Source of the DNA: Acidobacteriota bacterium
GTDB taxonomy: Bacteria > Acidobacteriota > Terriglobia > Acidiferrales > UBA7541
Assembly: GCA_003225295.1 (NCBI GenBank)
Contig: QHYZ01000106.1
Location: 1 to 49,336 of the forward strand
DNA length: 49,336 bases
Direction of reading: 5' to 3'
The notes beneath the pieces were generated by a model, which was given only the letters and a program-made list of their open reading frames with translations, ran no database searches and had not been told where the DNA came from. The translations under genes were made by a program, and so were the position numbers. Each line of letters begins with the position of its first letter. The stretch's first letter is position 1. Below are positions 1,231-30,352 of this stretch, one piece after another.

Positions 1231-1410
1231 CCCACACGTTTTCCCAGGCGGATGCCGCTGGAGCTCTTGCGCCGGTACGCGCAGCACGGAGTCATAGGGG
1301 TAAAGGATGAGGTGCGCCGTCGAACAAAGCAAGGCGCGAGCAGCGAACGAGCCGCATCCGCACAGCGCCCCTCTATCTCGCGGCGTGGAAGGGGTCTCAA
1401 GGCTGAGGGC

Positions 1411-1713
1411 ATGAGAAACCTGCTCCAACCCGTGCTCCAGTCCCTGTGGGGTCTGACAAAAGAGGAACTCCCGGAGCTGATTGGAGACCTGGAATCCCTA
1501 AAAGCTACCGCGTGGGCGCGTCTGATGGAGCCGGCGGCAGCGCCTGACCAGCATGACGAGCTCCTCGATGTGGAGGTAGCCGCAGAGCGCCTGGGTGTCA
1601 GCCGGGACTACTTATACCGCCATCACCCGCAATACGCGTTCACGCGGCGCCAGGGGCGCAAGTTGCTCTTCTCCGCGCTGGGCATCGATCGCCATATCAA
1701 ACAGAAGTATTGA
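1411..1713 (+). CDS. Excisionase-like helix-turn-helix protein
   Basis: A 100-residue protein whose C-terminal half (about residues 52-100) matches the excisionase/MerR-like winged-helix pattern: LDVEVAAERLGVSRDYLYR is a helix-turn-helix recognition segment, followed by a basic wing (TRRQGRKLLFS) and a short last helix. Such proteins bend DNA at attachment sites or act as small regulators. The ATG at 1411 is preferred over the upstream start at 1177, because the extra 78 residues lie over a palindromic element and look non-coding. The stop overlaps the possible TTG start of the next gene, and the integrase follows, so an accessory role in site-specific recombination is likely. A plain transcription factor is the alternative. 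Confidence 0.7.
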   Translation: MRNLLQPVLQSLWGLTKEELPELIGDLESLKATAWARLMEPAAAPDQHDELLDVEVAAERLGVSRDYLYRHHPQYAFTRRQGRKLLFSALGIDRHIKQKY

Positions 1714-1916
1714 CAACGGATATTTTATGTGTGACAACAAATCAAGACATGAGACGAGGCAGGCCGCGGACATCGGCGTCAAAGCGCCGGTCCAAGCTGT
1801 TGCACCACCGACTTACGGTGGAGGAGTACCGCCAAGTGCGGGCAGCTGCGAAGCGGGAGGGCCTGCCGCTGTCGGAGTACGTCAGAAAGAAACTCCTGCA
1901 GGACGGTGCGAAATGA
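1710..1916 (+). CDS. Small ribbon-helix-helix-like protein
   Basis: A 68-residue basic protein. The N-terminus (RRGRPRTSASKRRSK) is strongly positive, and the rest resembles a CopG/MobC-type ribbon-helix-helix: a short beta strand (LHHRLTVEEYRQV), then helices AAAKREGLPLSEYVRKKLL. Proteins of this kind dimerise on DNA as repressors or as relaxosome/mobilisation accessory factors. The TTG at 1710 overlaps the stop of the HTH gene, but the ATG at 1749 (MRRGRPR) gives a more typical protein and may be the true start. The stop overlaps the integrase ATG (ATGA), implying translational coupling in a three-gene unit. The exact role is not determinable. Confidence 0.65.
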   Translation: MTTDILCVTTNQDMRRGRPRTSASKRRSKLLHHRLTVEEYRQVRAAAKREGLPLSEYVRKKLLQDGAK

Positions 1917-3046
1917 GTCGCGGACAAGGCCGAGTGTTCGAGCGCAAGGGCAGTCCCTATTTATGGGTGGCGTATTACAGTCACGGACGCGAAGAGCGCG
2001 AGGTTGCGCGCCACGTCCGCACTGGCGAGAAGCTGGAAGCAACAACGGAAAAGAATCGCCACGAAGCCGAACGTTGGCTCAAGCATCGGCTCGGAGAAAT
2101 TGCGGCCGAGAAGCACGGCGGCCGGCCGTTTGTCGGCCCATCGCAAGAGCGCATCACGGTTGATGAATTGCTGGACGGACTCGAGCGCGACCTTAGGCTG
2201 CGCGACAAATGGAGAGCAGCGGTTGCCTCGAGCGCGAAGGCAGTGCGGAAGCGCTTCGGCACTTGGCGTGCCGCTGAGCTCACGTCGGACGCCATCGGAA
2301 AGTACATCGAAGGACTGCGCGAGGAAGGCTACCGCAATTCGACGATAAACCGCCGGACGCAACTTCTCGGGCAGGCGTACAAAGTCGCCATGCGCGAGAA
2401 AAAGCTATCTACTTCGCCATTCATCACGCACTTGTCAGAGATTGGTAATGAACGCGAAGGTTTTTTTGAAACGACGGACTTTGAAGCCGTGGTATCGCAC
2501 CTGCCAGAATATCTCCAAGACTTTGCCCGCTTCGGCTTCCTTACCGGCTGGCGCAAAAGCTCCATCAATTCGCTGCGTTGGGCTGACCTCGGTGATGATG
2601 TGATCTATCTCAGGGCCGAAAACTCCAAGACGCGCAAAGCGGAAACCATCCCGCTCGAGGGTGAACTGCAGGAGATCATCGAACGGCGCCGCGCGGCCAC
2701 GGTCATCAAGGAAGAGGGCAAAGAGCCGCGGTTCGCGGAGTTTGTCTTTCATCGCAAGGGAGAGCCGATTGGAGACTTTCGCAAGGCATGGGCCACAGCC
2801 TGCAGGGCCGCGAATGTGGATCATCGGCTCTTTCACGATCTTAGGAGAACTTGTGCCCGCAATCTCTTGGCCGCAGGCGTTCCTCAAGCCGTAGCCATGA
2901 AGATTACAGGGCATCGCACAGACTCAATCTTCCGCAGATATGCAATCGTCAACGAAGAGCAAAAACGCGAAGCCCTAGCCAAGGCGCAGAAGTACATCGC
3001 GGATTCGCCGACCCGCAAGGTTGTGACGATGGGCGGTGGAAAATGA
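1913..3046 (+). CDS. Tyrosine-type site-specific recombinase (integrase)
   Basis: A 377-residue phage/island-type integrase. An N-terminal arm-binding segment (residues 1-75) is followed by a core-binding SAM-like domain (about 80-170) and the catalytic domain. Visible catalytic elements are the first Arg in LTGWRKSS, the H-x-x-R box in FHDLRRTCARNLL, the second His in ITGHRTDS and the Tyr nucleophile in FRRYAIV. The frame is open further upstream, but the ATG at 1913 overlaps the previous stop (ATGA) and begins the family-like start MSRGQGRVFERKGSPY. It probably catalyses integration and excision of the element to the left, using the tRNA-derived site 140 bp downstream. All catalytic residues appear intact, so it may be active. 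Confidence 0.92.
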   Translation: MSRGQGRVFERKGSPYLWVAYYSHGREEREVARHVRTGEKLEATTEKNRHEAERWLKHRLGEIAAEKHGGRPFVGPSQERITVDELLDGLERDLRLRDKWRAAVASSAKAVRKRFGTWRAAELTSDAIGKYIEGLREEGYRNSTINRRTQLLGQAYKVAMREKKLSTSPFITHLSEIGNEREGFFETTDFEAVVSHLPEYLQDFARFGFLTGWRKSSINSLRWADLGDDVIYLRAENSKTRKAETIPLEGELQEIIERRRAATVIKEEGKEPRFAEFVFHRKGEPIGDFRKAWATACRAANVDHRLFHDLRRTCARNLLAAGVPQAVAMKITGHRTDSIFRRYAIVNEEQKREALAKAQKYIADSPTRKVVTMGGGK

Positions 3047-12404: not shown

Positions 12405-14774
12405 TTACGCTCGTTTCTCCATCTTCACCAGATCGCCTGCCTGGTAAATGTCCTTCGCCACCATCGCGCGGTACAACGTGTCCGCGTTGTTAAAAGAATC
12501 GCTGACCACAATCCCGCTGGAAAACAGGGCGTCTTGCAGGGCCGCTGAAATTGTGTGAATCGGGGCGGCACCACCTTCGCCCATGCCTTTCGCGCCGTTG
12601 TAACTGTGTGGCGATGGCGTCTCCATGTGCGCGTATCTCACGTTCGGTATGTTCACGGCCGTGATCGGAGTGTAATCGCTGAATGTCGCCGTTAGCATAT
12701 TTCCGACAGCGTCGTAGACACAGCGCTCCATTAATGCCGCCCCGATTCCGTGCGCCGTTGCGCCGTAGACTTGCCCTTCCACAATCGGAGGGTTGATGAC
12801 TTTTCCGCAATCATCGACGGCCACATACTCCAGGATGTGCGGGATGAAGGTGTCGCGGTCGATCTCGACCACAGCAATGTGAAGCTGTGACGCGTACGTC
12901 AGAGTCAGGCTGCCATATTTCTTTTCCTTGTCGGGCACTTTGAAGGGAGCGCGCCAGACGTAACGGCAGTTCAACGTCAGCTCGTAGAGTTCTTCGGGAA
13001 GGACCGCCGAATTCACATTGACAACGTTTGCCAACTGCCAGTAATTCACGGAACTGCCCGTATCTTTCGCGCGAATCTGCGGGCCCTGCTGTCCCATTCC
13101 AAATTCAAGATTTTCCTCGCCGGTTTTAAGCAAGAAGGCCGCCAGCTGTTTCATCTCGCTCTTCAGTTTTCGAGCCGCTCCGTGCACGGCGGACAAGCCG
13201 GAAACCGCAAACTGACTGGCGTACGTGCCCGATGCCCCCGTGTGCACGTTGCGTTCGGTGTCGAAACCGGTACGCACAGTAACCATGTCCGGGTGAATGT
13301 TGAGGACGTCGGCGACGACTTGCGCGGCGGTCGTTTCGTGGCCCTGGCCCTGGGGACAGGAACCGACAGCAACGACAACTTCGCCATAGATATCCAGCTT
13401 GCAGTTCGCGCCTTGAGAATTCCCGGAAAACGGCGCATGGGGATTAACGATCTGCGACTGTCCAAAATTGTTTGTTCCGGAATCAAGTGTAGTGCCAATC
13501 CCAATGCCCAGCCAGCGTCCTTCTGCTCGCGCCATGGCCTGTTTCTTTTTCCAATCCTCCCAGTCAATCCGCTCTTTGGCCACTTGCAGCATTTTGGGAT
13601 AGTTGCCGGAGTCGTAGACGCAACCGTTTGGCGTTGTGTAAGGAAATTCCTCCGGACGAATGTAATTGCGCAGCCTCATCTCGTCGGGAGGAATGCCTAG
13701 TTGGTGCGCGCAAATATCCACAACTCGTTCCAGGAACCACAGGTGCTGCATCCGCGAATAGCCGCGATTCGGGCCAACCGGACACTTGTTCGTTACTGCC
13801 TGGCTGAAATCGATGCGCGCATTCCGGAAGCGGTAGACGCCGGGAAAAACCTGCGCCCAGATCACGCAGCCCAGTGGCTCATAGCGCGGATAGGCACCGC
13901 AATCATCAATGTGGCGGGAGTCGATTGCCATGATGACTCCGTCTTTGTCCAAAGCGACACGCGTGTCGCGGAATGTCCGCTCGTTGCCGTGTGCGCTCGA
14001 GACGTTGTGCTCGGAGCGCGTCTCGATCCACTTCACCGGGCGGCCGCCCGCTTTTTTCGACGCCAGCGCGCAAACCGACATTTGCGGGTAACTGGTGATC
14101 TTGATCCCAAAGCTGCCGCCGATGTCGAAAGTCTGAACACGAATCCTGTCGATGGGGGTACCTAGATGCGCTGCGATGAACTGCATCGCAAAGGACGGAA
14201 ATGAATTGTTGCACCAGTAATAGATATGCTCGTCTTTGGCGTCCCACTGACCAATCACCGCGTTATTTTCGAGCGGCGTGCTGGAAAAGCGGTGAAAATG
14301 CATCTTGTCGATACGCACGATGTGAGCCGCTTCGCGAAACGCTTTCTCGATGTCACCGTATTCGAAGGTGCCTCGCCAAACACGATTTGTTCCGGCCTCC
14401 TCGTGAAGCAGGACGGAGGCTTTCAAGGCTTCTTCGCCGTCAACTACTACCTCCAATGACTCATAATCGACTTGCACGAGTTCTGCGATTCGCGCGAAAG
14501 GATCCGGTCCGATTTCGATGAAAGGATTCGTCTGATGCGCGATCTCCGCACCAGTGAGCGTGCAGATGACCCCCGGCAGGGCCTCCGCCGCGGCGGTATC
14601 GAGGCTGGTCACCCGGGCATGAGCATACGGAGAGCGCACGAACTTCAAATACAGCATATCGTGCAGCCTGATGTCGTCGATGAACTTGCCGCGTCCGCGC
14701 AGGAGTCGGTTATCCTCCTTCCGTGCCAGCCCTTTGCCGACCCATCCCGCGCCATCGCTTCCCACGCAAGTCAC
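12405..14774 (-). CDS. Xanthine dehydrogenase family, molybdopterin-binding subunit
   Basis: The large (CoxL/XdhB-like) subunit of a three-component molybdenum hydroxylase, 789 residues. Features include the N-terminal hammerhead domain (RLLRGRGKFIDDIRL, KFVRSPYAHARV), Mo-pterin contacts (DIGGSFGIK, GPNRGYSRMQ, GSCPQGQGHETT) and the C-terminal active-site Glu in KGMGEGGAAP. The CO-dehydrogenase VAYRCSFR loop is absent, so this is a heterocycle or aldehyde hydroxylase rather than CODH. The hammerhead domain looks about 30 residues short: between GAEIAHQTNP and ARIAELVQVDYE the usual VRYVGEPVA segment is missing while the frame stays open. The start is GTG 14774 after a GGGAAAGAGAG stretch. Acts with the CoxG-like, 2Fe-2S and FAD proteins immediately upstream. 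Confidence 0.88.
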   Translation of the reverse strand: MTCVGSDGAGWVGKGLARKEDNRLLRGRGKFIDDIRLHDMLYLKFVRSPYAHARVTSLDTAAAEALPGVICTLTGAEIAHQTNPFIEIGPDPFARIAELVQVDYESLEVVVDGEEALKASVLLHEEAGTNRVWRGTFEYGDIEKAFREAAHIVRIDKMHFHRFSSTPLENNAVIGQWDAKDEHIYYWCNNSFPSFAMQFIAAHLGTPIDRIRVQTFDIGGSFGIKITSYPQMSVCALASKKAGGRPVKWIETRSEHNVSSAHGNERTFRDTRVALDKDGVIMAIDSRHIDDCGAYPRYEPLGCVIWAQVFPGVYRFRNARIDFSQAVTNKCPVGPNRGYSRMQHLWFLERVVDICAHQLGIPPDEMRLRNYIRPEEFPYTTPNGCVYDSGNYPKMLQVAKERIDWEDWKKKQAMARAEGRWLGIGIGTTLDSGTNNFGQSQIVNPHAPFSGNSQGANCKLDIYGEVVVAVGSCPQGQGHETTAAQVVADVLNIHPDMVTVRTGFDTERNVHTGASGTYASQFAVSGLSAVHGAARKLKSEMKQLAAFLLKTGEENLEFGMGQQGPQIRAKDTGSSVNYWQLANVVNVNSAVLPEELYELTLNCRYVWRAPFKVPDKEKKYGSLTLTYASQLHIAVVEIDRDTFIPHILEYVAVDDCGKVINPPIVEGQVYGATAHGIGAALMERCVYDAVGNMLTATFSDYTPITAVNIPNVRYAHMETPSPHSYNGAKGMGEGGAAPIHTISAALQDALFSSGIVVSDSFNNADTLYRAMVAKDIYQAGDLVKMEKRA

Positions 14775-14802
14775 CTCTCTTTCCCAGGCAGCGGATTTCG
14801 CC

Positions 14803-15243
14803 TCAACGTAACGCCACTATCAATCCATCAATCAGTTTCTGGACATTTTTCCTTCCAAGCGGCTCTAGAAGACCACCCGCCACGGACATCAAGCGTCCGA
14901 AAATTTGCGCCTCGCCTTGCCAGGCGACTTTCGTACCGCCGCCAGCCGCAACAAGATCGAAACCTGCCGTCAGCGATATATTTCCGCCGGCGACCTTTCC
15001 CTGCCCCTTATACCGGGCACGCTGCGGGCGGCTAGCTTCGGCCAACTCCATTTTCATCTCCGCGGTCCCCTTGATATACGAGATGCCCACATTTACCTTT
15101 ACCTCAAAATGGCGCTCGTCCTGCACAGCCATTTCTTGAAAGTCCGGAAGCAAAGGCGCGAACTTATTCGGATCCGTTAGGAAGTCGTACACTTCTTCTG
15201 GTGCGCGCGGGACTTGGAAGTCTCCCCCGAATTTAATCGGCAT
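14803..15243 (-). CDS. CoxG-like SRPBCC protein
   Basis: A 146-residue START/SRPBCC-fold protein of the carbon-monoxide-dehydrogenase subunit G family (MPIKFGGDFQVPRAPEEVYDFL, then the beta-rich middle and the C-terminal helix LIDGLIVALR). CoxG recruits CO dehydrogenase to the membrane in CO oxidisers. Homologues accompany many other molybdenum hydroxylases and probably help assembly or membrane docking. It overlaps the 2Fe-2S gene by 11 bp and lies 28 bp before the molybdenum subunit. Confidence 0.85.
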   Translation of the reverse strand: MPIKFGGDFQVPRAPEEVYDFLTDPNKFAPLLPDFQEMAVQDERHFEVKVNVGISYIKGTAEMKMELAEASRPQRARYKGQGKVAGGNISLTAGFDLVAAGGGTKVAWQGEAQIFGRLMSVAGGLLEPLGRKNVQKLIDGLIVALR

Positions 15244-15733
15244 GGCTGGGACTCCTCATTGTCGTCGCGGCGTTCTCGATTGCTTTGAAAATATTCTGAT
15301 AGCCAGTGCATCGGCAGGTATTTCCTGCAATCGCTTTGCGAATCTGTTCCCGGTTGGGCGTCGGATTATCCTTCAGGAGTTGCAGCGCAGAAATCATCAG
15401 CCCTGGTGTGCAATAACCGCATTGGAGACCGTAGCAGTCGCCAAACGCTTTTTGAATGGGATGAAGGTCGCCGTTTTTCGCCAAACCTTCGACGGTGGTA
15501 ATTTCCGCACCGTCGGCTTGCACCGCGAAAACCGTGCAGGACTTCACCGCCGCGCCGTTCATCAGCACCGTGCACGCGCCACAATAGGTCGTGTCGCATC
15601 CGATGTGCGTCCCTGTCAGTTCAAGATCTTCGCGAATAAATTCAACCAGCAACTTCCGAGGTTCGACTTCACGCGGGTGTAACTTTCCGTTGACGCGGAC
15701 CTGAATGGAAACCCCTGGAGCGGCTTCAGGCAT
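15233..15733 (-). CDS. Molybdenum hydroxylase (2Fe-2S) subunit
   Basis: A 166-residue small subunit (CoxS/XdhC-like) carrying two [2Fe-2S] clusters. The N-terminal plant-ferredoxin-type site is GCDTTYCGACTVLMNG, with the fourth Cys in KSCTVFA. The C-terminal helical site is CGYCTPG plus CRCTGY. It passes electrons between the molybdopterin and FAD subunits. The ATG at 15733, eight bases inside the FAD-subunit gene, fits the family length; the open frame extends to 15802. GGAGG lies about 12 bases upstream of the ATG. Confidence 0.92.
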   Translation of the reverse strand: MPEAAPGVSIQVRVNGKLHPREVEPRKLLVEFIREDLELTGTHIGCDTTYCGACTVLMNGAAVKSCTVFAVQADGAEITTVEGLAKNGDLHPIQKAFGDCYGLQCGYCTPGLMISALQLLKDNPTPNREQIRKAIAGNTCRCTGYQNIFKAIENAATTMRSPSHAD

Positions 15734-16619
15734 AGATGTGGCTGACCTCCACCTGCTGTCCGCGAGCACGCCGGAGCGCAGCTTCAGTCGCGCGTTTAAC
15801 AAGTGCCCCTACGAGTTGCCGCTTGTAATCCGCCGAGCCCCGCATATCTGATTGCGGATCGGCGGCAGCGCGCGCGGCATCTGCGGCAGATGCGATAAGC
15901 TTTGGAGTGATTTGCTGGCCACGGAGTGCCGCCTCTCCTTCTCGCGCCCGAATCGGCAGCAAACCGACGCACCCCAAAGCGATTGTAATGTCTTTGCAAC
16001 GATCACCCTCCACCGTCAACTGCACGGCAGCACTCGCCGTCGGATAGACAGGCGCCGTCCGCTTGAAAGCAATGTAGGCGCCCCCGCTGTTCTCCGGCGG
16101 GACTTTGACGATCACCTCTGAAACAAGTTCGTCGGGGGCAAGTGCCGTGGTAAAGGCATCTTTCAGGAATTCCGTCAGCTTTAGGGTGCGATCGCTTGAT
16201 TGCACAGCGCAACGGACTTCGCAGGAGAGAGTCAGTAACACGGTGGCCCAATCGCCGCTAGGGTCGGCCTCGGCAAGCGATCCGCCGATCGTTCCGCGAT
16301 TTCTCACCTGTACATCGGCGATTCCCGCCGCGCAATCGTGCAGAATGGGAACACGCGCAACTGAGGCTGACTTCTCAATTTCCGCGTGCCTTGTAAGTGG
16401 TCCGAAACGAAAAGCGCCATCCTGTTCCCGGATGTATGATGTTCCGCTGATAAAATTTAAATCCACGAGATGAACTGGATTGGCAAAACGCAATTTCATT
16501 AATGGAATCAAACTCTGGCCGCCAGCCAGCAGCTTCGCACCTTCCCCCAGTTGAGAGAGGAGCGTGGCTGCGTCCTTGAGTGAGCTAGCTCGATGATAGC
16601 TAAAAGCCCGGGGATACAT
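15726..16619 (-). CDS. Molybdenum hydroxylase FAD-binding subunit
   Basis: The medium (CoxM-like) subunit of the three-part hydroxylase, about 297 residues. It shows the PCMH-type FAD signatures AGGQSLIPLMKLRFA and RNRGTIGGSLAEADPSGDW, and a C-terminal CO_deh_flav_C domain. The ATG at 16619 is chosen because MYPRAFSYHRASSLKDA matches the normal family N-terminus and GAGGA lies 10 bases upstream; a TTG at 16655 is also in frame. First structural gene after the GntR regulator, and overlaps the 2Fe-2S gene by 8 bp. Confidence 0.9.
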   Translation of the reverse strand: MYPRAFSYHRASSLKDAATLLSQLGEGAKLLAGGQSLIPLMKLRFANPVHLVDLNFISGTSYIREQDGAFRFGPLTRHAEIEKSASVARVPILHDCAAGIADVQVRNRGTIGGSLAEADPSGDWATVLLTLSCEVRCAVQSSDRTLKLTEFLKDAFTTALAPDELVSEVIVKVPPENSGGAYIAFKRTAPVYPTASAAVQLTVEGDRCKDITIALGCVGLLPIRAREGEAALRGQQITPKLIASAADAARAAADPQSDMRGSADYKRQLVGALVKRATEAALRRARGQQVEVSHIYA

Positions 16620-16739
16620 CCTGCGTAAGTCCTCGAATGACCACCGCGACTTCAAATCGACAGAAGGCTAGCAAGTTTGCCTTCGGGTGAACTTGTTTAC
16701 AGTAACCGGCCCGGACGCGCAACCTCGGCCAGATTAAAA

Positions 16740-17414
16740 CTACTTGGCAACCCTGGCGATTCGCTGATCCATCACGGCAGTCAATCTTGTTTCCGAATCT
16801 CGCAGATGCTGCGCGAGAAGCGAGGCGCACTCCTCCGTCTTTCCCCCGGTCAACAATTCGAAGATTCTCCGATGAACTGGAACGAGTCCGCCTGGATTAT
16901 CGTGTCTGAGATCGACAAGAACCATGCCCATCCGCAATTCACCCAGAAGTTTCTGGTAAAAGGACTCCAGGCGGCGGTTCCGGTGAAAGCGAATCAGCAG
17001 CGTGTGAAAGTAGAGATCGAACCGGACAGCTCTCACCCAATCCAGGCCCTCAACCGCCTCCTCGTAGCCTTCCAGTGCGTTTCGCATCTCCGCCAGCACA
17101 TCGGAGCCTTCCATCCGCGCTGCCCGCACAGCCGGAATCTCCAACAGGTGGCGGAGCCGATAAATTTCACCTACGTCTTCCAAAGACAGCTGCGCGACAG
17201 TCACACCGCGATGCGCACTCCGCTTGAGCAAGCCCTCCAGAGATAAAATACGTGTCGCTTCCCGGATGGTATTTCTGGATACACCGAGCGATGCGGCCAT
17301 GGGCACTTCTTGTAGGGCCGTTCCGGGGATCAACACTCCATCGAGGATCCGCTGCCTGAGAATCGAGGCAACCTGATCTGCGACAGAGACCCGATGTATT
17401 TCAGCAAGTTCCAT
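16740..17414 (-). CDS. GntR-family regulator with FCD domain
   Basis: A 224-residue FadR-subfamily transcription factor. The winged helix occupies residues 1-75 (VADQVASILRQRILDGVLIPG, then EVPMAASLGVSRNTIREATRIL as the recognition region). A helical FCD ligand-binding domain with metal-ligand Asp/His positions (RFDLYFHTLLIRFH, HRRIFELL, QHLRDSE) follows. FCD regulators sense small carboxylates, which suits a cluster breaking down an acid. The ATG at 17414 is preferred over an open start at 17459. Being first in the minus-strand cluster and divergent from the TonB receptor, it probably controls both sides. Its operator is not proven; TGTTCAACA at 17477-17485 is a candidate half-site pair. Confidence 0.9.
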   Translation of the reverse strand: MELAEIHRVSVADQVASILRQRILDGVLIPGTALQEVPMAASLGVSRNTIREATRILSLEGLLKRSAHRGVTVAQLSLEDVGEIYRLRHLLEIPAVRAARMEGSDVLAEMRNALEGYEEAVEGLDWVRAVRFDLYFHTLLIRFHRNRRLESFYQKLLGELRMGMVLVDLRHDNPGGLVPVHRRIFELLTGGKTEECASLLAQHLRDSETRLTAVMDQRIARVAK

Positions 17415-17853
17415 GTTTGATCTCGACCGGTGCCGGGCAGGGCGACATCTTGCCCCCAAACCGGATCGGAGTCAAGTGTTCAACAAGTCTCATATTCAAT
17501 TGGTCTCCTCTTTCCGCTTGACATGCTCTATGCCCACGCTTAGTGTATCGTTCATTCCGCTGTTCTTTTGTCGAGGTAGGGGCTTGGGATGGGTCGCTCC
17601 AGTGCGCTGCCAGGGCATCTTAAACGACGTTGACTTTCCCGGCGGGTTCCTTGGCATACCTTCACTCCGGGTGCACCCGATCTACCCTTCGTGCTTCGCG
17701 GCTCTGTTCGCCTTGCCTATTCCTGCGGGCTAGAAAAGGCTGCTCACTCATTTCCAGGCGAGCCAAGGCTGCCATGATCAGAGTGCCGTTGAAAGACATT
17801 ATTTCGACCGATGTTGGGACTGCTCGTTTTGAGATGGCTTACGGGGGTGTTCC
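17415..17853. other. Divergent intergenic region (GntR / TonB receptor)
   Basis: A 439-bp control region with no gene. It holds a small palindrome TGTT-C-AACA (17477-17485) near the regulator start and a TTGACA box on the plus strand (17518-17523). A lone copy of the GGTCGCTCCAG word seen in the palindromic elements at the window start lies near 17588. The leader of the receptor mRNA would be about 300 nt if the TTGACA promoter is used. Confidence 0.5.
17518..17546 (+). promoter_or_regulatory. Candidate promoter for the TonB receptor
   Basis: A perfect -35 box TTGACA (17518-17523), a 17-bp spacer and a weak -10 TAGTGT (17541-17546) point towards the receptor gene. The -35 and spacing are good, but the -10 matches the consensus at only three of six positions. 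Confidence 0.35.
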
Positions 17854-20800
17854 GTGATTCGCAGCAAGTGGAGTTTTCCGCTTCAGATTCTTCCGATCGT
17901 TTTATGCGCTGCTTTCCTCCTAATTTTGCCGGCGTCTGTCCGCGGCCAGGCGGTCAATGCCACGCTCTCTGGAAAGATAACCGATGCTTCCGGCGGAAGT
18001 GTGGCCAAAGCCACGGTGACGGCTTCCAATCTGGCCACGGGGTTCTCGCGCTCCGCACAAAGTTCCGATAACGGCGAATACACCATACGCGCGCTCCCGG
18101 CTGGTGAATATAAGGTCATGGTTGAATTCTCGGGATTTGGAAAACAGACTAAAAACATCACGCTCCAGGTCGGGCAAGCCGCGGAGCTCGGATTCACTCT
18201 CTCGCCGGGGGAAATGGTTCAGAAAGTGGAAGTCGAAGCAACTGCAGAACTTGCTGAGCCGACCCGCACCCAGGTCAGCACGGTGATCACGGAAAACCAG
18301 ATTGTCAATCTGCCGGTGAACGGGCGCGAATTTATCGACTTTGCGTTGCTCTCCCCCGCCGTTACCATCGGGGATACCACGGCCGGAAACACCGACGTGA
18401 TTGTCGAGCCGGTAACCAAGCTGTCTTTTGCGGGCCAGAACATCCATTACAATTTCATCGCTGTCGACGGCGCCGACGACATATCGACAGCCTCGGGCAT
18501 CCAGCGCGGCACACCTCCACAGGAATCGGTGCTGGAATTCCGCGTCATCAACACCGATTATTCTGTAGAGTTTGGCCGCGCGAGCGCTGGCATCGTGAAC
18601 ATTATCACACGTGGCGGCACCAATGAATGGCACGGAGTCGCTTACGAGTATTTTCGCAACAACAAACTGGATGCTATCAATCTCCTGCAGGCTACTGGTG
18701 CGCACGATTTGCGGCAGAATCAATTCGGCGCGGCAATTGGGGGTCCGATTCAAAAAGACCAGACTTTTATTTTCGGCAACCTTGAACTCCAGCGCCGCGG
18801 TGAATCGCCTTTCTACAATTCCGCTGTGCTCCAAAACATCAAATTCATTAATGAGGTGAAAGCCGTCTATGGTCTGGCGCAGGAACCGGCCTTGGGTAGT
18901 GTTCTGCGCACAAACGACAATGACAACGGCTTCCTGAGGTTGGACCGCAGCTTCAACCAGAAGGAAACAATGTTCGTCCGCTATTTCATTAGCGATGGAA
19001 GGTTGCTCGACCAGTCGCCGCTGAACGACGGCTTCGACTTGCCCTCCGCTTTCAAGGACAACTTCTATCGCGATCAATCCGTCGCTGGCACGCTTGCTTC
19101 CGTACTCAAACCGTCGACGGTTAACGAGCTGCGCATGCAGTTTGCTCGGCGGTCTTTTGACTTCCCTACCGTCTCCACCCAGCCGCACCTGGAACTCTCA
19201 AATACCTTTACTACGGGGGTGAACCGCGGTAATCCGGATTTCTACCGCGAATCCCGCTTTGAATTGGTCGACAATTTTTCAATCTCCCATGACCGCCATA
19301 CCTTCAGCTTCGGGGGAAATACCAATTACGTTCGCACCACGGAATCGTTTCCACTGTTCTATCCGTTTGAAGCCGACTTCCCCAATCTCGGCGCTTTTCT
19401 GGGGAATGATGGCGTCAACGGAGCCCAATGCGTCTCGGCCGCGGGGGACCCCGGAGGCGCTGGTCCAGCTGGCTGCCAGCATCCCAACGTGATCTTTTTT
19501 GAGCGCTTTCAGGCGCCCAATTTCAACGAGCGTAGCCTGAATACCTCGGTTTACAGCGGAACGCGGATTTCTCCCACCATCCGCAATCAAGCGGAAGGCA
19601 CTCTCAACCACACCTATAATGGCCTCTTCATACAAGACAAATGGCGCGCGACAAGCCGTTTGACATTGAACGGCGGGATTCGCTGGGAGTGGGAGACCTG
19701 GCCCAGCGGCGTCCTCAATACTCAGTGGAAGAACTTCGACCCCAGGTTGGGTGTTGCTTATAATCTCGGGACCAAGCACAACTTTGTCATTCGCGCTGGC
19801 TTTGGCTTGTTCCACGGAATTATTCCCGCTCCGCTCCTGGCCTGCCAACTTCCGTCTTGCGGTGGGACCATCGGCAAATATCCCAGCCGCCCGTTCGAGA
19901 ACAACCTCGACGCCAAGACGGAACTCTTCGCTTTCGCCAGTTCTCCGGCGATCACCGCTCTTGGGCTCGAGGGGTTGGTCAAAGACGGAGCTTATCCGGA
20001 CAATACAACGGATCCATTTACGAATCCTTTCCCGGGTTGTACTCCGATCACTAACTGTGCATTTTTTGGACCGTCCGTAGTGGTTCGCTTCGATCAAAAC
20101 CATCAGAACCCTTATGGCATTCAAGCCAGCGCTGCAATCGAATTCGATCCGCTCCCCGATACAGCAGTAAGCATCAGCGGTCTCCACATCCGCGGCGTCC
20201 ATCTCGGTAGCTTCTTTAACGTAAATCAGCCTGACCCAACCGCCCAGGTGACCGCTTTTGACTCGCAAGGCCGCAGTGGACAAAAAAACGTCTATTGCTC
20301 TTCCGTTCAGGCATGCCCTTTTACTCCCGGCGTGCGCACTTTTCCGATCGCAATTTACTTCGAGGCAACTTCTCGTTGGGATTCCCAGTATGACGGGCTG
20401 TTGATCAATGTGAACAAGCGCCTGTCTCATCATTTCTCGTACGGCGTCAGCTACACCTGGTCGAAATCCATTGACGATGGGCCGAACCCCAGCTTCGTAT
20501 TGATCCCGCAAGACAGCCAGAACTTCCGCGCGGAGCGTGCTCTTTCTTCGGACGATGTTCGCAACCGTCTCGTGTTTAATGGCACGGTGACAACGCCTAA
20601 GGAATGGAATGTCTTCGCTCGCAACTTCGAGGCTGGCATGATTGCCACAATCCAGTCCCCCATGCGTTTCACGAAATTTGCCGGTTTTGACGCGAACGGA
20701 GACATCTTCGGCAATAACGACCGTGTCGGCATCGAGCCCCGCAACACCTTCGTTGGCGACAATTTCCGCTCCGCTGATTTTCGCCTGGGACGAACCTTTC

Positions 20801-21045
20801 CGTTCAAGGAGCGACGCAGCCTGGAGGTCCTCGCGGAGGCCTTCAATCTCTTCAACACGACCAACATTCGCTTCTTTAACACCGTTTATGGCGCGGCCGA
20901 TTTTTGTCCGCCTGATCCGACTGCCTTCGGCTGCCCGGCGAGCCCGTCCACTTTCCGAGAGGGCTCGCCGAATCCGCTTTACGGGTCTCCCCGCGCAGTT
21001 TTCAATCCGCGACAGATTCAGCTGGCGTTAAGATTCAACTTCTAA
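17854..21045 (+). CDS. Oar-type TonB-dependent receptor
   Basis: A 1063-residue outer-membrane protein. A signal peptide (hydrophobic LPIVLCAAFLLILPA, cleavage near VRGQA) is followed by a carboxypeptidase-regulatory-like beta-sandwich (about residues 30-110: ATLSGKITDASGGSVAKATV). A plug-like region then contains QIVNLPVNGREF and IVNIITRGGTNEWHG, and a long beta barrel ends in the terminal aromatic LALRFNF. This layout is typical of the greatly expanded Oar-like receptors of Acidobacteriota, which import polymers or bulky nutrients using TonB energy. The start is GTG 17854 with GGGGG just upstream. Divergent from the GntR gene and probably co-regulated with the catabolic cluster; the ligand cannot be read from sequence. 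Confidence 0.92.
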   Translation: MIRSKWSFPLQILPIVLCAAFLLILPASVRGQAVNATLSGKITDASGGSVAKATVTASNLATGFSRSAQSSDNGEYTIRALPAGEYKVMVEFSGFGKQTKNITLQVGQAAELGFTLSPGEMVQKVEVEATAELAEPTRTQVSTVITENQIVNLPVNGREFIDFALLSPAVTIGDTTAGNTDVIVEPVTKLSFAGQNIHYNFIAVDGADDISTASGIQRGTPPQESVLEFRVINTDYSVEFGRASAGIVNIITRGGTNEWHGVAYEYFRNNKLDAINLLQATGAHDLRQNQFGAAIGGPIQKDQTFIFGNLELQRRGESPFYNSAVLQNIKFINEVKAVYGLAQEPALGSVLRTNDNDNGFLRLDRSFNQKETMFVRYFISDGRLLDQSPLNDGFDLPSAFKDNFYRDQSVAGTLASVLKPSTVNELRMQFARRSFDFPTVSTQPHLELSNTFTTGVNRGNPDFYRESRFELVDNFSISHDRHTFSFGGNTNYVRTTESFPLFYPFEADFPNLGAFLGNDGVNGAQCVSAAGDPGGAGPAGCQHPNVIFFERFQAPNFNERSLNTSVYSGTRISPTIRNQAEGTLNHTYNGLFIQDKWRATSRLTLNGGIRWEWETWPSGVLNTQWKNFDPRLGVAYNLGTKHNFVIRAGFGLFHGIIPAPLLACQLPSCGGTIGKYPSRPFENNLDAKTELFAFASSPAITALGLEGLVKDGAYPDNTTDPFTNPFPGCTPITNCAFFGPSVVVRFDQNHQNPYGIQASAAIEFDPLPDTAVSISGLHIRGVHLGSFFNVNQPDPTAQVTAFDSQGRSGQKNVYCSSVQACPFTPGVRTFPIAIYFEATSRWDSQYDGLLINVNKRLSHHFSYGVSYTWSKSIDDGPNPSFVLIPQDSQNFRAERALSSDDVRNRLVFNGTVTTPKEWNVFARNFEAGMIATIQSPMRFTKFAGFDANGDIFGNNDRVGIEPRNTFVGDNFRSADFRLGRTFPFKERRSLEVLAEAFNLFNTTNIRFFNTVYGAADFCPPDPTAFGCPASPSTFREGSPNPLYGSPRAVFNPRQIQLALRFNF

Positions 21046-21145: not shown

Positions 21146-22231
21146 ATGAGATTCGGCATTTACGCGGAGATGCAGACCGCGCCGGGAAAATCGCACAGCG
21201 ATATGACTTGGGAAATCCTTCACCAGATCGAGCACGCCGATCAAGTCGGTTTCGATGTCTACTCCGTCATTGACCATCATTTCTTTCAGAAATTTTCCAT
21301 CTCGGCCAATCCCCTGGCACTCTTCTGCGCCGCGGCCCAGCGCACCGAGCGCATTCGCTTTCGCGTCGCCCTGATCACTCTTCCCCTCGAGAACCCCATG
21401 CGGCTGGCAGGTCAAGTCGCGGAAGCCGATATCCTCACGCGCGGGAGGCTCGAATGCGGGTTGGGGCGCGGCCATGCGTGGCTCTTCGGCCCTTCGAATG
21501 TCCCGCTCGAAGAAAGCCGCCCGCGCTACGACGAAGCCGTCGAAATTCTGATTAGCGCCTGGACCACCGACAAAATGTCCTATGCGGGCCGGTTTTACAA
21601 AGTGCAGGACCTTACCGTCGTGCCCAAACCGAGGCAGAAACCGCATCCGCCGCTTTTCACGGGCGGCACGAGCGATATCACTTATCAGATGGCCGGACAG
21701 CGGGGATGGGGAATCTTGGTACCGCCCTTGCTTCCCTGGGGCGTGTTGGAAAAGCCTCTCGAGATCTATAAAAAAGCCTGCGCCGACCACGGACACCAGC
21801 CCAACATCGTTTATATCCGTCCTGTTTATTTGGACGAAGACGAAAAACAAATTCGAAAAGAGGTGGAAGGCGCGCTGCACAATTTCCTGGCGTTTAACGC
21901 TTCGCCGGTAGAATCTTTGCAGGGCGAAGCGATGAAGGCGGAACTTCGTGCCAAGGGCTATGGTTTCTACGCCAGCGGCGCGCTAGAATCGCTGACCAAG
22001 CTGACCTACGAAGAGTTCGTGGGCCAGGAGATTGGTTTCATCGGCACCCCGGAAAAAGTGATTCGTCAGATTCGAAACCTGCAAGCCAAAGGCGGCATCG
22101 GAGAATTGGCCATTGTCTCCAATTTTGGTGGCCTCGAACACTGGAAATCCATCAAGACTCAGCAGCTCTTTGCCGAGCGTGTGATGCCGGCATTCCGCGG
22201 AGACGCTGCTGTTTCTCAAGTGGGCGCATGA
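21146..22231 (+). CDS. LLM-class flavin-dependent oxidoreductase (second copy)
   Basis: A 361-residue luciferase-like protein, clearly of the bacterial-luciferase monooxygenase branch: MRFGIYAEMQTAPGKSH, EHADQVGFDVYSVIDHHF, FRVALITLPLENPMRLAGQVAEADILTRGRLECGLGRG, and a C-terminal GTPEKVIRQIRNLQAKGGIGE. Such enzymes use FMNH2 and oxygen to oxidise aldehydes, alkanes or ring ketones. GGAGGGGCT lies directly upstream of the ATG. It sits 100 bp after the TonB receptor and 35 bp before the HxH membrane protein. It differs considerably from the LLM protein at 5712, so the two are not recent duplicates. Confidence 0.87.
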   Translation: MRFGIYAEMQTAPGKSHSDMTWEILHQIEHADQVGFDVYSVIDHHFFQKFSISANPLALFCAAAQRTERIRFRVALITLPLENPMRLAGQVAEADILTRGRLECGLGRGHAWLFGPSNVPLEESRPRYDEAVEILISAWTTDKMSYAGRFYKVQDLTVVPKPRQKPHPPLFTGGTSDITYQMAGQRGWGILVPPLLPWGVLEKPLEIYKKACADHGHQPNIVYIRPVYLDEDEKQIRKEVEGALHNFLAFNASPVESLQGEAMKAELRAKGYGFYASGALESLTKLTYEEFVGQEIGFIGTPEKVIRQIRNLQAKGGIGELAIVSNFGGLEHWKSIKTQQLFAERVMPAFRGDAAVSQVGA

Positions 22232-22265: not shown

Positions 22266-23399
22266 ATGGAATCGATGAGCTCGTCTCAAGGCGCAATGCC
22301 GCTCGAATCAGACACCGTGTTCGTGCAGAGCCAAACGTTCGCACCGCTTAGCGCGCGGCGTCTCCTACTCTTGGGCGGCATGGGCCTGATCCTTGTGGGA
22401 ATGATTTTCGGCGACATCTTTGCGGTCTTTGTTTTGCACCAAAACGCCGCACGAGTCGGTGCGAGCCTTGCTGCAGCCTCGCATGCAGCACTCGGCGGTG
22501 ATAGCGCTGCCGTGGTCAAGAATTTTCAAAATGTTGGCAGTTTCCTCGAAAATCGCGGCACCAAAGTTGACACTCATGTCCACATTATCGCTTTCGGGTA
22601 TGTGGCGCTAATGCTCGCGCTCCTCGTTCCCTGGATGACACTTTCAGCAACTACAAAAAAGAGGTTGGCCTGGTTGCTTCTTTGCGGCGCCGGATTGCTG
22701 CCGCTATGCGTTTTCCTCATCCACTACGTGGGTTTGGCTTACAGCCCGCTTCAGGCCATTGGATGGGCAAGCATCTTTGCCGATCTCGGCGGCTTGTTGG
22801 TGATCGTTGCCTTGGCTGGTTTCCTCTATGGGCTGGTGAAGCGCTTTCTCTCTGCGGAACGGGCCCCCGTCGAGGACGAACTGCTTGCCGGATCAAGTGC
22901 CACCGGTCGGTCGCTGCTTGCCGGAGGCTCATTCCTTGTGCTGCTCGGGTTCCTTCACGGCACCTATTACGCCGCTGTCGACCTCTATCGCCACGAAGCG
23001 CTCGACTATGCGATTCTTTCGCAAATCAGCGTTGGAGCTGCAGGCGAGAACACCACAGCTGTTGAGAGCGCACTTGCGGCGTATGGCCGACTCCAAGGTG
23101 ACAAGGCGGTGAATATCGCCGCACACGCTCACATAATCGAGTTCGGCCTGCTGGCCATGCTACTGGCGTATTTTCAACCCTATGTAAATTTGCGCGCGGC
23201 CTGGAAGCAGCGTTGGGCCGTGGTGCTCTTGCTCGGATCCGTGCTTCTGCCTGTTTGCGTGCTGCTCGAGCTGAACTATGGCTTGGTCGCTGGCGGATTA
23301 GCGGACATCGCAGGCTTGCTCGTCATCGTCGCGATGCTGGCAATGTGGATTGGCATTCTGCGTTACACCGGTAAACTCGATGCGGGAGGCGCAACATGA
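22266..23399 (+). CDS. Membrane protein with two tandem four-helix HxH modules
   Basis: A 377-residue integral membrane protein I do not recognise. Two homologous halves are visible: module A (about residues 30-195) and module B (about 212-368). Each begins with a (R)LLxGG helix, has an amphipathic segment with a His (LHQNAA with H58; YRHEAL with H243), then an HxH motif at a helix start (VDTHVHIIAFG, H104/H106; AAHAHIIEFG, H287/H289). Each ends with two more helices (LLPLCVFL / LLPVCVLL and LGGLLVIVAL / IAGLLVIVAM). The His-to-HxH spacing is 46 and 44 residues. A third copy forms the next gene, whose ATG overlaps this stop (ATGA). Conserved His at membrane-helix ends suggest haem or copper binding, which is inference only. 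Confidence 0.85.
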   Translation: MESMSSSQGAMPLESDTVFVQSQTFAPLSARRLLLLGGMGLILVGMIFGDIFAVFVLHQNAARVGASLAAASHAALGGDSAAVVKNFQNVGSFLENRGTKVDTHVHIIAFGYVALMLALLVPWMTLSATTKKRLAWLLLCGAGLLPLCVFLIHYVGLAYSPLQAIGWASIFADLGGLLVIVALAGFLYGLVKRFLSAERAPVEDELLAGSSATGRSLLAGGSFLVLLGFLHGTYYAAVDLYRHEALDYAILSQISVGAAGENTTAVESALAAYGRLQGDKAVNIAAHAHIIEFGLLAMLLAYFQPYVNLRAAWKQRWAVVLLLGSVLLPVCVLLELNYGLVAGGLADIAGLLVIVAMLAMWIGILRYTGKLDAGGAT

Positions 23400-23884
23400 G
23401 CGGAGCGCGCCGGCTACTCCTTACGGGTGGGATTGTTCTGGCCTTGTGGGGCATGAGCTACGGGCTGTGGTATGCGGTTTTTGCCGAGCACCAGGCACTC
23501 GAAGAGATCGGATCATCGCTCGCACGAGGGTTCAGCGGAGCTGCGGCTAGGAATATAGCGCTCGCCGAAGCGTCCCTTCGGCAATACCAGCAAGCCAAAT
23601 ACGTTTACGACCGGCAAGTGGATGTCCACGGCCACTGGATCGGTCTGGCAATGGTATTGGTTGTCGCGGGGATTGGCCTCGATCGCTTGGCGTTCTCCGA
23701 GCGAATCAAAATGCTTCTCTCTGTGACCGCCTTGCTCGGCTCTTTTCTTTTTCCGCTGGGTGTGTTGCTACAGACTCTAAACCGCGGGAATGGGCCGCGC
23801 GCCGTCGCAATCCTGGGATCCGCGCTCATCATTGCCGCCCTCGGCACGTTCGCACTGGGGTTCGCGCGCAAGCCTGCTGCCTGA
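23396..23884 (+). CDS. Membrane protein, single four-helix HxH module
   Basis: A 162-residue, four-helix membrane protein homologous to each half of its upstream neighbour. RRLLLTGGIVLALWGM opens the module, AEHQALEEIGSSL carries H32, VDVHGHWIGLAMV carries H78/H80, and LLGSFLFPLGVLL and LGSALIIAALG are the last two helices. The H-to-HxH spacing of 46 residues equals that of module A. Translation is coupled through an ATGA overlap. Together the two genes supply three modules, which suggests a multi-subunit membrane complex. No known family could be assigned. Confidence 0.82.
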   Translation: MSGARRLLLTGGIVLALWGMSYGLWYAVFAEHQALEEIGSSLARGFSGAAARNIALAEASLRQYQQAKYVYDRQVDVHGHWIGLAMVLVVAGIGLDRLAFSERIKMLLSVTALLGSFLFPLGVLLQTLNRGNGPRAVAILGSALIIAALGTFALGFARKPAA

Positions 23885-28497: not shown

Positions 28498-28989
28498 CTA
28501 AGCATGAAGGCCTTCGGTGGGTTCTTGGGCCGACGCCCTTACTTCAGGCGAAGTATCTCCACAAGCTAACAAGGCAAGCCCTGCCTCTTTGATGTTCATG
28601 GCGGCAACCCCATCGGCGTTGGCTGAGAACCCGCACTCGAGGCAGGTGAACTGCGCTTGCCTCTTGCGGTTGTCTCCCGAAGTGTGCCCGCACCCGGGGC
28701 ACTTGCGGCTGGTGTTCTTCGCCGGCACCGCCATGAGCATGCCGCCCTGCCACCTGGTCTTATATTCCAACTGGCGACGTAGCTCGAACGGGCTGGCATC
28801 CAGAATGGAGCGGTTAAGGCCCGACTTTGCCTTGACCCTCCTTCCCTGCTGCTCCCTGGTGCCTGCGGCCGATGCCGACATATTCTTTACTTGCAGGTCT
28901 TCGACGATGACAACGGCGTGGTTTTTGCTGATGTCCGACGAGACCTTATGTAGGAAATGCTTTCTGGTGTTGGCGATTCGTTGGGCCAA
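28498..28989 (-). pseudogene. tnpB: Truncated TnpB (RuvC C-terminal part and zinc ribbon)
   Basis: 163 residues corresponding to the C-terminal 40% of an IS605-family TnpB RNA-guided nuclease. It retains the RuvC-II Glu (VVIVEDLQVKNM), the zinc ribbon (CPGCGHTS, CLECGFSA) and the RuvC-III Asp (NADGVAAMNIKEAG). The N-terminal REC/WED region and the RuvC-I Asp are missing, so nuclease activity is not expected. The reading frame is still open from an ATG at 28989, just at the deletion junction. The 3' end runs towards the hairpin at 28460-28477, where the guide RNA of complete elements is normally encoded. Confidence 0.85.
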
Positions 28990-29401: not shown

Positions 29402-30352
29402 TCATTTGTTCTCGCCACAAAATGCCGGTGCATTCACGCCCAACAATCCGCATCCTCGCTGAATCTCGTCCTCGATCAGCTTGCACGAATTTTGCACGTT
29501 GCACGGCGTATGCGTTGCCGGCGATACTTGCACGCACTGCCTCACCAACTCATTCGCCACCGGCTTGCCCACCGTCTTCTCGCAACTCTTCCCGGAGGAA
29601 TCCCCCACGCCTGGCTCGCTTCCCGCTTGCACCTGGAACTCCGCGTTGCAGCCTCGATCCACCCAGACACCCCGGCGATCGTGCCCCCATGTCGAACCTT
29701 CCATACATGGCGCCGTGCTGATCTGTCTCGTCAGTTGCACGGTGGCCCCCTGCGTATCCACATCGCAATAATTCTTTCTTCCGTCGAACGAAGCGCAGCT
29801 TATCCTCTGGCTCTTGCCTCCGGCTTTCACGAAGCCGGCCGGATGCCCCGGTACGCCCACTACAAAATCCGCCTCGCATCCTTTATCTACCCATATCCCT
29901 CGAGTATCGTGTCCCCACGAGGAGCCTTCCTTGCACTTCGCGCCGCTCCGTTGTCTCACGAGCTGCACCCCATTGCTGGTATCCGCCCGGCAAACTTTTC
30001 GTCGGCTATCGTCCGAAGCACACGTTATCGTCCTTCCACCATCCGCGGCGCGGGCATCACCGCCGTCATCGCCGCGCCCCAAAGTAAACTCGCCGCCGCA
30101 TCCCTTATCCACCCAGATTCCTTCTTCATCGTAGCCCCACGACCCACCCTCTTTGCACGGCGCCTGGCTGCGTTGCCGCACCAGTCGCGCTCCATACCTG
30201 GTGTCGGCCGTGCAGTAGTGCTTCTCCCCGTCATCCGAAGAACACGGAATGATCTGGCCGTGGCGCTCCTGTGGTCCCTGTCTGGCCAATACCCCACGGC
30301 AAAAAGGTGCTAGGACCGCCATCAAAACAAAAATATACCGGCAAGTTCGCAT
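29402..30352 (-). CDS. Secreted protein with three DUF3011 repeats
   Basis: A 316-residue exported protein. A signal peptide (MRTCRYIFVLMAVLAPFCRGVLA) precedes three tandem 60-residue DUF3011 units at about residues 33-90, 105-165 and 180-240. Each has I.CaS.D...YC.ADT, a LVRQ(R/I)S segment, C.EGS.WG.D and GIWVD.GC.AEF, with four regularly placed Cys that probably form disulfides. A different Cys-rich tail (SCEKTVGKPVANELVRQC, CNVQNSCKLIEDEI, GCGLLG) ends the protein. AGGAG lies six bases upstream of the ATG. DUF3011 is of unknown function, possibly carbohydrate binding at the cell surface; that is a guess. Confidence 0.88.
   Translation of the reverse strand: MRTCRYIFVLMAVLAPFCRGVLARQGPQERHGQIIPCSSDDGEKHYCTADTRYGARLVRQRSQAPCKEGGSWGYDEEGIWVDKGCGGEFTLGRGDDGGDARAADGGRTITCASDDSRRKVCRADTSNGVQLVRQRSGAKCKEGSSWGHDTRGIWVDKGCEADFVVGVPGHPAGFVKAGGKSQRISCASFDGRKNYCDVDTQGATVQLTRQISTAPCMEGSTWGHDRRGVWVDRGCNAEFQVQAGSEPGVGDSSGKSCEKTVGKPVANELVRQCVQVSPATHTPCNVQNSCKLIEDEIQRGCGLLGVNAPAFCGENK

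Follow-up and report, generated by a model that had tools for sequence, protein, structure and literature searches.

The 12 helices of haem-copper oxidase subunit I are grouped into three four-helix units that surround a pseudo-three-fold axis, and this core of the respiratory oxidases is considered a product of the triplication of a four-helix unit. An HxH motif in helix X provides one His to haem a3 and the other to haem a, the second ligand of haem a coming from helix II. NnrS (PF05940) and DUF2871 (PF11070) are 12-helix and 4-helix relatives of the oxidases, respectively. In 2014 Pei et al. reportedly defined HCO-homology (HCOH) families, which are said to include single-unit proteins as well as three-unit fusions. 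The MAPEG proteins are not known to bind haem. A trimer fold that resembles the oxidase core has been described as common to the YgdD and MAPEG trimers in an eLife 2015 paper (PMC4602095), in which Pei et al. are cited for families homologous to the oxidases. Styrene oxide isomerase (StyC) was likewise described as a trimer, which binds ferric haem b via H58 at each subunit interface and accepts the substrate at the sixth site of the iron; according to its authors, DALI gave no substantial structural similarities (PMC11374702). In the isomerase from Rhodococcus both haem and activity were lost when the equivalent His was mutated, and the N- and C-termini were both reported to be cytosolic (PMC12502698).

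Here we analysed two genes, P1 and P2, found in a stretch of 49,336 nucleotides from an Acidobacteriota bacterium (the window), and compared the encoded proteins with these systems.

Genes, modules and conserved histidines

The original prediction of two overlapping genes with three copies of one module, two in P1 and one in P2, held both for the coordinates (Table 1) and for the homology of the modules. The copies were 32-35% identical to each other (blastp E 6e-18, 3e-14 and 1e-9), 0/500 windowed shuffles reached the real alignment score for each of the three module pairs, and the module profiles matched each other in hhalign with E 6e-32, 4e-26 and 9e-22. The ATGA overlap was found as in the window in 45 of 48 homologous P1/P2 pairs, in which the P2 starts were chosen by script, and at the locus L052 P1 and P2 are naturally fused in a single frame of 564 aa. 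We read P1 and P2 as parts of one putative 12-helix membrane complex, a 2+1 pseudo-trimer.

Table 1. Positions of the P1/P2 genes, their modules and their neighbours in the window, and of two single-module proteins (L112, L124).
Feature	Coordinates	Strand	Description
CoxL, CoxG, CoxS, CoxM molybdenum hydroxylase genes	12408..16655	-	PF02738/PF20256, PF06240, PF01799, PF00941/PF03450
GntR/FCD regulator	16740..17459	-	PF00392, PF07729; cluster in 22/58 loci
Oar/TonB-type outer-membrane beta-barrel, carboxypeptidase regulatory domain	17854..21045	+	PF25183, PF13620; 45/58 loci
LLM (luciferase-like) oxidoreductase	21146..22231	+	PF00296, E 9e-53; cluster in 24/58 loci
P1	22266..23399	+	377 aa; contains modules 1 and 2; eight TM helices predicted
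Module 1	22350..22862	+	Residues about 29-199
Module 2	22884..23384	+	Residues about 207-373
ATGA start/stop overlap of P1 and P2	23396..23399	+	
P2	23396..23884	+	162 aa, module 3
L112 four-helix HxH protein	1309-1749		No Pfam match at E <= 1
L124 four-helix HxH protein	1498-1989	-	

P1 gave matches at E <= 1e-3 in 5/396 genomes of the phylum. Both P1 and P2 were present in the genome of the window and in G377 and G210; the match in G312 was judged to be chance, and by eye it is a different membrane protein. G259 (L005/L011) has a lone, possibly decaying P2-like gene with a start late in helix 1; its neighbours, identified by eye, encode a TonB protein and a cyclase-like one. A pattern scan with one genome per species yielded 56 loci, mostly from Acidobacteriota and some from Gammaproteobacteria (Halieaceae, Woeseiaceae). 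For the alignments we used 52 P1 and 50 P2 sequences, window counted in, three of the P1 being partial; we left out the duplicates L027 and L043, fragments at contig ends that scored below the limit, and L061, where P1 is in two frames. The gene neighbourhoods were studied in 58 loci, that is the window and L009-L067 minus L027 and L043, with fragments counted in. Neither P1 nor the P2 profile detected any module in the window's own genome other than those of P1/P2, and a search of plasmids with P1 was without match. Only chance-level matches were obtained for P1 and P2 in single-protein searches of Pfam and NCBIfam and for P1 in a sequence search of the PDB.

The HxH was conserved without exception in module 1 (H104/H106, 52/52), module 2 (H287/H289, 51/51) and P2 (H78/H80, 50/50). 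A pattern H-(44-46)-HxH had been proposed as invariant, with spacings of 46 (H58-H104), 44 (H243-H287) and 46 (P2 H32-H78). The spacings were correct, and in the homologue alignment the invariance extended to HxH in all modules and to the first His in modules 1 and 3, but not to the first His of module 2. H58 (52/52) and P2 H32 (50/50) were fully conserved and fell in the same alignment column, where module 2 has Tyr241 (Tyr in 44/52, His in 0/52). H243, aligned with Asn60 and His in 35/52 sequences, lies two residues past Tyr241, and it is because of this shift that the spacing is 44 instead of 46. Judged from the alignment, modules 1 and 3 share a genuine pattern, and its occurrence in module 2 is accidental.

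The residues fully conserved in module 1 were H58, E95, GTK98-100, D102, H104-x-H106, G111, P122, Y154 and D173, with H153 being His in 47/52 homologues. Module 2 had H287-x-H289, P329, E335 and D347 fully conserved and E292 in 50/51, its TM1 His being not conserved, and in module 3 (P2) H32, H78-x-H80-W81 and F119-P120 were fully conserved and Q126 was found in 46/50.

Each module had been described as four helices with HxH at a helix start. AlphaFold predicted the four helices in each, but placed HxH within helix 2 and not at its very start; the long helices 1 and 2 (44-49 residues) form a protruding hairpin. Each loop that follows helix 2 contains three Lys+Arg, against none or one in the loops that follow helix 3; together with the cytosolic termini of styrene oxide isomerase, this suggests an N-in topology with HxH near the periplasmic face. 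The helix 1-2 hairpins hold 3-5 Lys+Arg each, and 3-6 acids, despite their assumed periplasmic side.

Predicted fold and relation to described families

When the L052 fusion was aligned jointly with the P1 and P2 rows the modules were misplaced, and random subsets were tried for this reason. Four of 160 random subsets aligned correctly, the largest of which (A4; 12 P1 and 18 P2 rows and L052) was taken; correct alignment was the only criterion for this selection, which was made before any model existed. The AlphaFold model of L052 obtained with this 31-row alignment had a pLDDT of 86.6 and a pTM of 0.86. Foldseek against the PDB placed NO reductase 4xyd first (E 1.3e-3, prob 0.99) with cytochrome oxidase subunit I also at the top, while superposition on oxidases over the whole length was poor (TM about 0.2, rmsd above 20). 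With a second aligner, oxidase and NO reductase subunits occupied rows 1-42 among the best 50, with 250-308 of the 564 residues aligned, i.e. about half of the model, and a best Z of 13.7, to be read against the Z of up to about 13 that helical bundles may score without kinship.

The P2 model (48 rows) reached a pLDDT of 96.1. In the second aligner it matched the four-helix unit at the C-terminus of oxidase subunit I (R. sphaeroides 376-524) with Z 12.5 and rmsd 2.5 A over 127 residues, and styrene oxide isomerase with Z 11.7 and rmsd 3.1 A over 128 residues; under the aligner's own rule the two are tied, and the caution on helical bundles with Z up to about 13 applies to both. The first Foldseek match of P2 was styrene oxide isomerase 8pnu (E 0.039, prob 1.00, TM 0.62/0.64), followed on ranks 2-18 by V-ATPase rotor-type chains, whose prob and TM did not exceed 0.82 and 0.31, respectively. 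Chains of mPGES-1 had prob 0.98-1.00, TM 0.54-0.61 and E 0.2-0.6. No Foldseek match of the L052 model or the P2 model reached E <= 0.001. MAPEG proteins scored Z 9-10 against P2, LTC4 synthase with an rmsd of 3.4-3.9 and mPGES-1 with one of 5.1-5.4, and MAPEG families were absent from the Pfam listings of P1/P2 and their homologues. We ranked MAPEG below the oxidases on the basis of Z and rmsd.

On these models a predicted arrangement of three four-helix modules around a pseudo-three-fold axis, similar to the oxidase core, is well supported. The view that no family has this triplication could consequently not be kept, since haem-copper oxidase subunit I has a three-fold four-helix core: the three homologous four-helix units and 12 helices of P1/P2, with the three-fold taken from the predicted L052 model, correspond to it. 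P1/P2 shares with the oxidase and NO reductase subunits I (PF00115) an HxH placed early in the second of a unit's four helices, and by predicted fold and motif spacing the module HxH is the equivalent of the helix X HxH. Unlike them, P1/P2 is distributed 2+1 over two genes and carries HxH in all three units. COX1 gave no match for P1/P2 at E <= 10; with 48 homologue rows of each protein the limits were E <= 1 for P1 and E <= 0.12 for P2, again without a match. The oxidase HPxVY/HGxVY was found in 0/52 P1 and 0/50 P2, with His153-Tyr154 of module 1 as the only candidate for the CuB/FeB ligands, and profiles of the oxidase units, built from 22 sequences of subunit I, gave no reliable match (E 0.05 or worse).

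As to the other oxidase relatives, neither NnrS nor DUF2871 appeared in the family listing of 48 P1 homologues (E <= 1); of 48 P2 homologues a single one matched DUF2871 (E 0.11), and no match to NnrS was seen at E <= 0.12. A DUF2871 search of 247 genomes was without match, as were its controls. The HCOH proteins reportedly share with P1/P2 a four-helix unit that carries HxH and is akin to the last unit of the oxidases, but they are said to be encoded as single-unit genes or three-unit fusions. Single-gene four-helix HxH proteins were found in Acidobacteriota also by us (L112, L124-L127), and the profile of P2 matched L112 with an hhalign prob of 90.6 and E 1.3e-6. These five proteins are possible homotrimeric relatives of P2. 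The further candidates L114, L115 and L116 were judged to be chance, L114 and L116 looking soluble. A 2+1 split with HxH in every unit, or the P1/P2 locus itself, was not described in the literature we covered, which included few subscription papers. On its predicted fold, P1/P2 is placed within a known superfamily and there forms a new family and architecture.

Comparison with styrene oxide isomerase

In whole-chain comparison the P1-family profile matched isomerase 30tw with E 1.2, RNA polymerase omega chains scoring alike; the match was made of three collinear pieces, and the HxH of module 2 fell on the haem-ligand His. When modules 1, 2 and 3 were compared with five isomerases by hhalign, E values of 9.5e-4, 3.6e-4 and 0.013 were obtained (single comparisons), and in all three modules the first His of HxH was placed on isomerase H58. 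The same column was retained when the three modules were aligned with L112 and two isomerases by MAFFT (six rows). Column-shuffled isomerase profiles reached the real score in 0/300 cases for modules 1 and 2 and in 7/300 for module 3. Counted from the first His, a Gly at +7 and a Pro at +18, which are common to StyC and modules 1 and 2, occurred in 52/52 and 52/52 of module 1, 50/51 and 45/51 of module 2 and 5/5 and 5/5 of the isomerases; module 3 had the Gly in 9/50, and Pro was not among its four commonest residues at +18. We concluded that the modules have a weak sequence similarity to the isomerase. P1 and P2 did not match the NCBIfam model StyOxIsoStyC (NF045734; more than 150 bits required) at E <= 10, the StyC control scoring 251.7. 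A match of the isomerase to oxidase unit A (E 1e-3) was rejected, as its register (isomerase 6-56 on unit 65-137) contradicts the fold match.

StyC (NF045734; PDB 8pnu, 8pnv) is thus similar to P1/P2 in consisting of an N-in four-helix unit with a His at the haem-ligand position early in helix 2, and its trimer with haems at the interfaces is the arrangement we propose for P1/P2. It differs in being a homotrimer from one gene, in having Gly60 in place of the second His and in its shorter helix 1-2 hairpin. Of the catalytic residues Asn64, Asp95, Asn99 and Tyr103 none was matched in P1/P2 except Tyr103, with Tyr154 of module 1, in one of two alignments.

Putative haem sites and alternative functions

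Haem or copper had been suggested as the cofactor. The predicted fold and the alignment to a known haem ligand support haem, which P1/P2 likely binds; copper is a less probable candidate. The first His of HxH would be the proximal ligand of a haem b at the module interface, and the second would reach the haem of the neighbouring interface, just as in cytochrome c oxidase two haems are served by the HxH of helix X. As HxH is present in all three modules, each pore would therefore have two His ligands, in the pairs H287/H106, P2 H78/H289 and H104/P2 H80. The result would be three haem b sites, bis-His and low-spin, close to the periplasmic face. In the isomerase, Gly60 at the second position leaves the iron open; the second His in the modules favours low-spin, electron-carrying haems over Lewis-acid catalysis. 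We infer from this the bis-His state and the electron-transfer role, and P1/P2 is most likely an electron carrier. The complex would most likely shuttle electrons, with the quinone or respiratory pool on one side and the enzymes of the locus, the molybdenum hydroxylase and the LLM oxidoreductase, on the other. To the complete proposal, a pseudo-trimer with three bis-His haem b sites that acts as the electron-transfer cytochrome of a conserved redox locus, we give an even chance.

P1/P2 could alternatively be a hetero-oligomeric relative of styrene oxide isomerase, its interface haem or haems being Lewis-acid catalysts that act on an epoxide or a related product of the LLM enzyme. The isomerase heads the Foldseek list of P2, the order flavin reductase - LLM - P1, consecutive in 10/58 loci, resembles StyA-StyB-StyC, and Tyr154 of module 1 (52/52) pairs with the catalytic Tyr103 in the hhalign alignment. 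That pairing is however absent from the six-row MAFFT alignment, and in the hhalign alignment, which requires a five-residue gap, Asn99 and Asp95 are without conserved counterpart. The second His present in all modules would moreover occupy the sixth coordination site, and the P1/P2 locus has no known epoxide step. We consider this function unlikely.

Less probable still is an enzyme of the haem-copper/NOR type, a reductase or an oxidase, in which one interface holds haem together with a non-haem metal, for instance in NO detoxification. NO reductases top both whole-model lists, in the second tied with cytochrome oxidases, and His153 (47/52)-Tyr154 at the end of helix 3 of module 1 lies, by eye, roughly at the position of the CuB His pair of oxidase helix VII, with E292, E335, D173 and D347 as conserved acids. 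But His153 is replaced by Tyr in 5/52, the oxidase sequence signals such as HPxVY are absent, and the window's own genome has four COX1 matches elsewhere than P1/P2. Equally improbable is a membrane scaffold, transporter or copper-site protein with an oxidase-like fold but no haem, which would be in line with the MAPEG proteins and YgdD, to which the trimer fold is also ascribed, but has against it the six invariant HxH His, the first of each pair at a proven haem-ligand position.

P1/P2 could be a surviving intermediate between one-gene homotrimers, such as the isomerase and the single HxH proteins, and the fused oxidase core, with bis-His haem in all three pores, of which modern oxidases leave one empty. 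We regard this as a tentative and rather doubtful idea. If true, the oxidase core would originate from a triplicated haem module, and the 'unique' fold of the isomerase would be tied to the oxidases. Our literature search by title, abstract and terms, mostly outside subscription papers, found no such link between isomerase and oxidases. The 2+1 genes with HxH in each unit, together with the natural fusion, would let the triplication origin be tested in living proteins, and P1/P2 provides the isomerase with possible relatives.

Gene neighbourhood

In the window the GntR regulator and CoxM-S-G-L are divergent from TonB-LLM-P1-P2. Neighbour clusters were named after one representative per cluster or after the window's own genes. 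The original prediction had made P1/P2 a possible partner of the neighbouring TonB and luciferase-like pathway, and the co-occurrence with LLM agrees with this: including a second LLM family (5/58), one of the two was found in 29/58 loci. The hydroxylase of the CO-dehydrogenase/xanthine-dehydrogenase type was commoner, with any of CoxM/S/L in 37/58 (CoxM 36, CoxL 33, CoxG 28, CoxS 26). CoxG has been reported to pass electrons to quinone (PMC13240472), and there is thus less need for P1/P2 as acceptor of the hydroxylase. Also frequent were an M20 hydrolase (32/58), a PanE-like protein (30/58) and M24 (29/58), followed by flavin reductase (14/58), MopB molybdoenzyme (5/58) and NrfD (4/58). Genes for F420 biosynthesis or an F420 reductase (any of CofC, CofD, CofG, NpdG) were present near P1/P2 in 20/58 loci, e.g. 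L064:290-3275, and the LLM enzyme may accordingly use F420. Neither CoxM/S/L nor MopB was found in 18/58 loci; some of these are short contig ends, but in at least seven no fewer than ten genes were called.

The gene content of the locus suggests a catabolic pathway, perhaps for a nitrogen-containing compound. P1/P2 is a conserved uncharacterised membrane component of this degradation locus in Acidobacteriota and some Gammaproteobacteria, and probably an undescribed haem protein serving the conserved gene cluster.

At three loci (L029, L009, L062) MopB, a 4Fe-4S protein and NrfD lie beside P1/P2 and replace the Cox hydroxylase; at L060 they lie alongside it. Further downstream in the window, on the minus strand, a TnpB/OrfB-like zinc-ribbon frame (28498-28989, by eye) is probably a transposon remnant, and 29402-30352, also on the minus strand, encodes a secreted-looking protein with three tandem repeats of about 55-60 residues that contain VQLVRQRS-/GIWVDKGC-like stretches (by eye).
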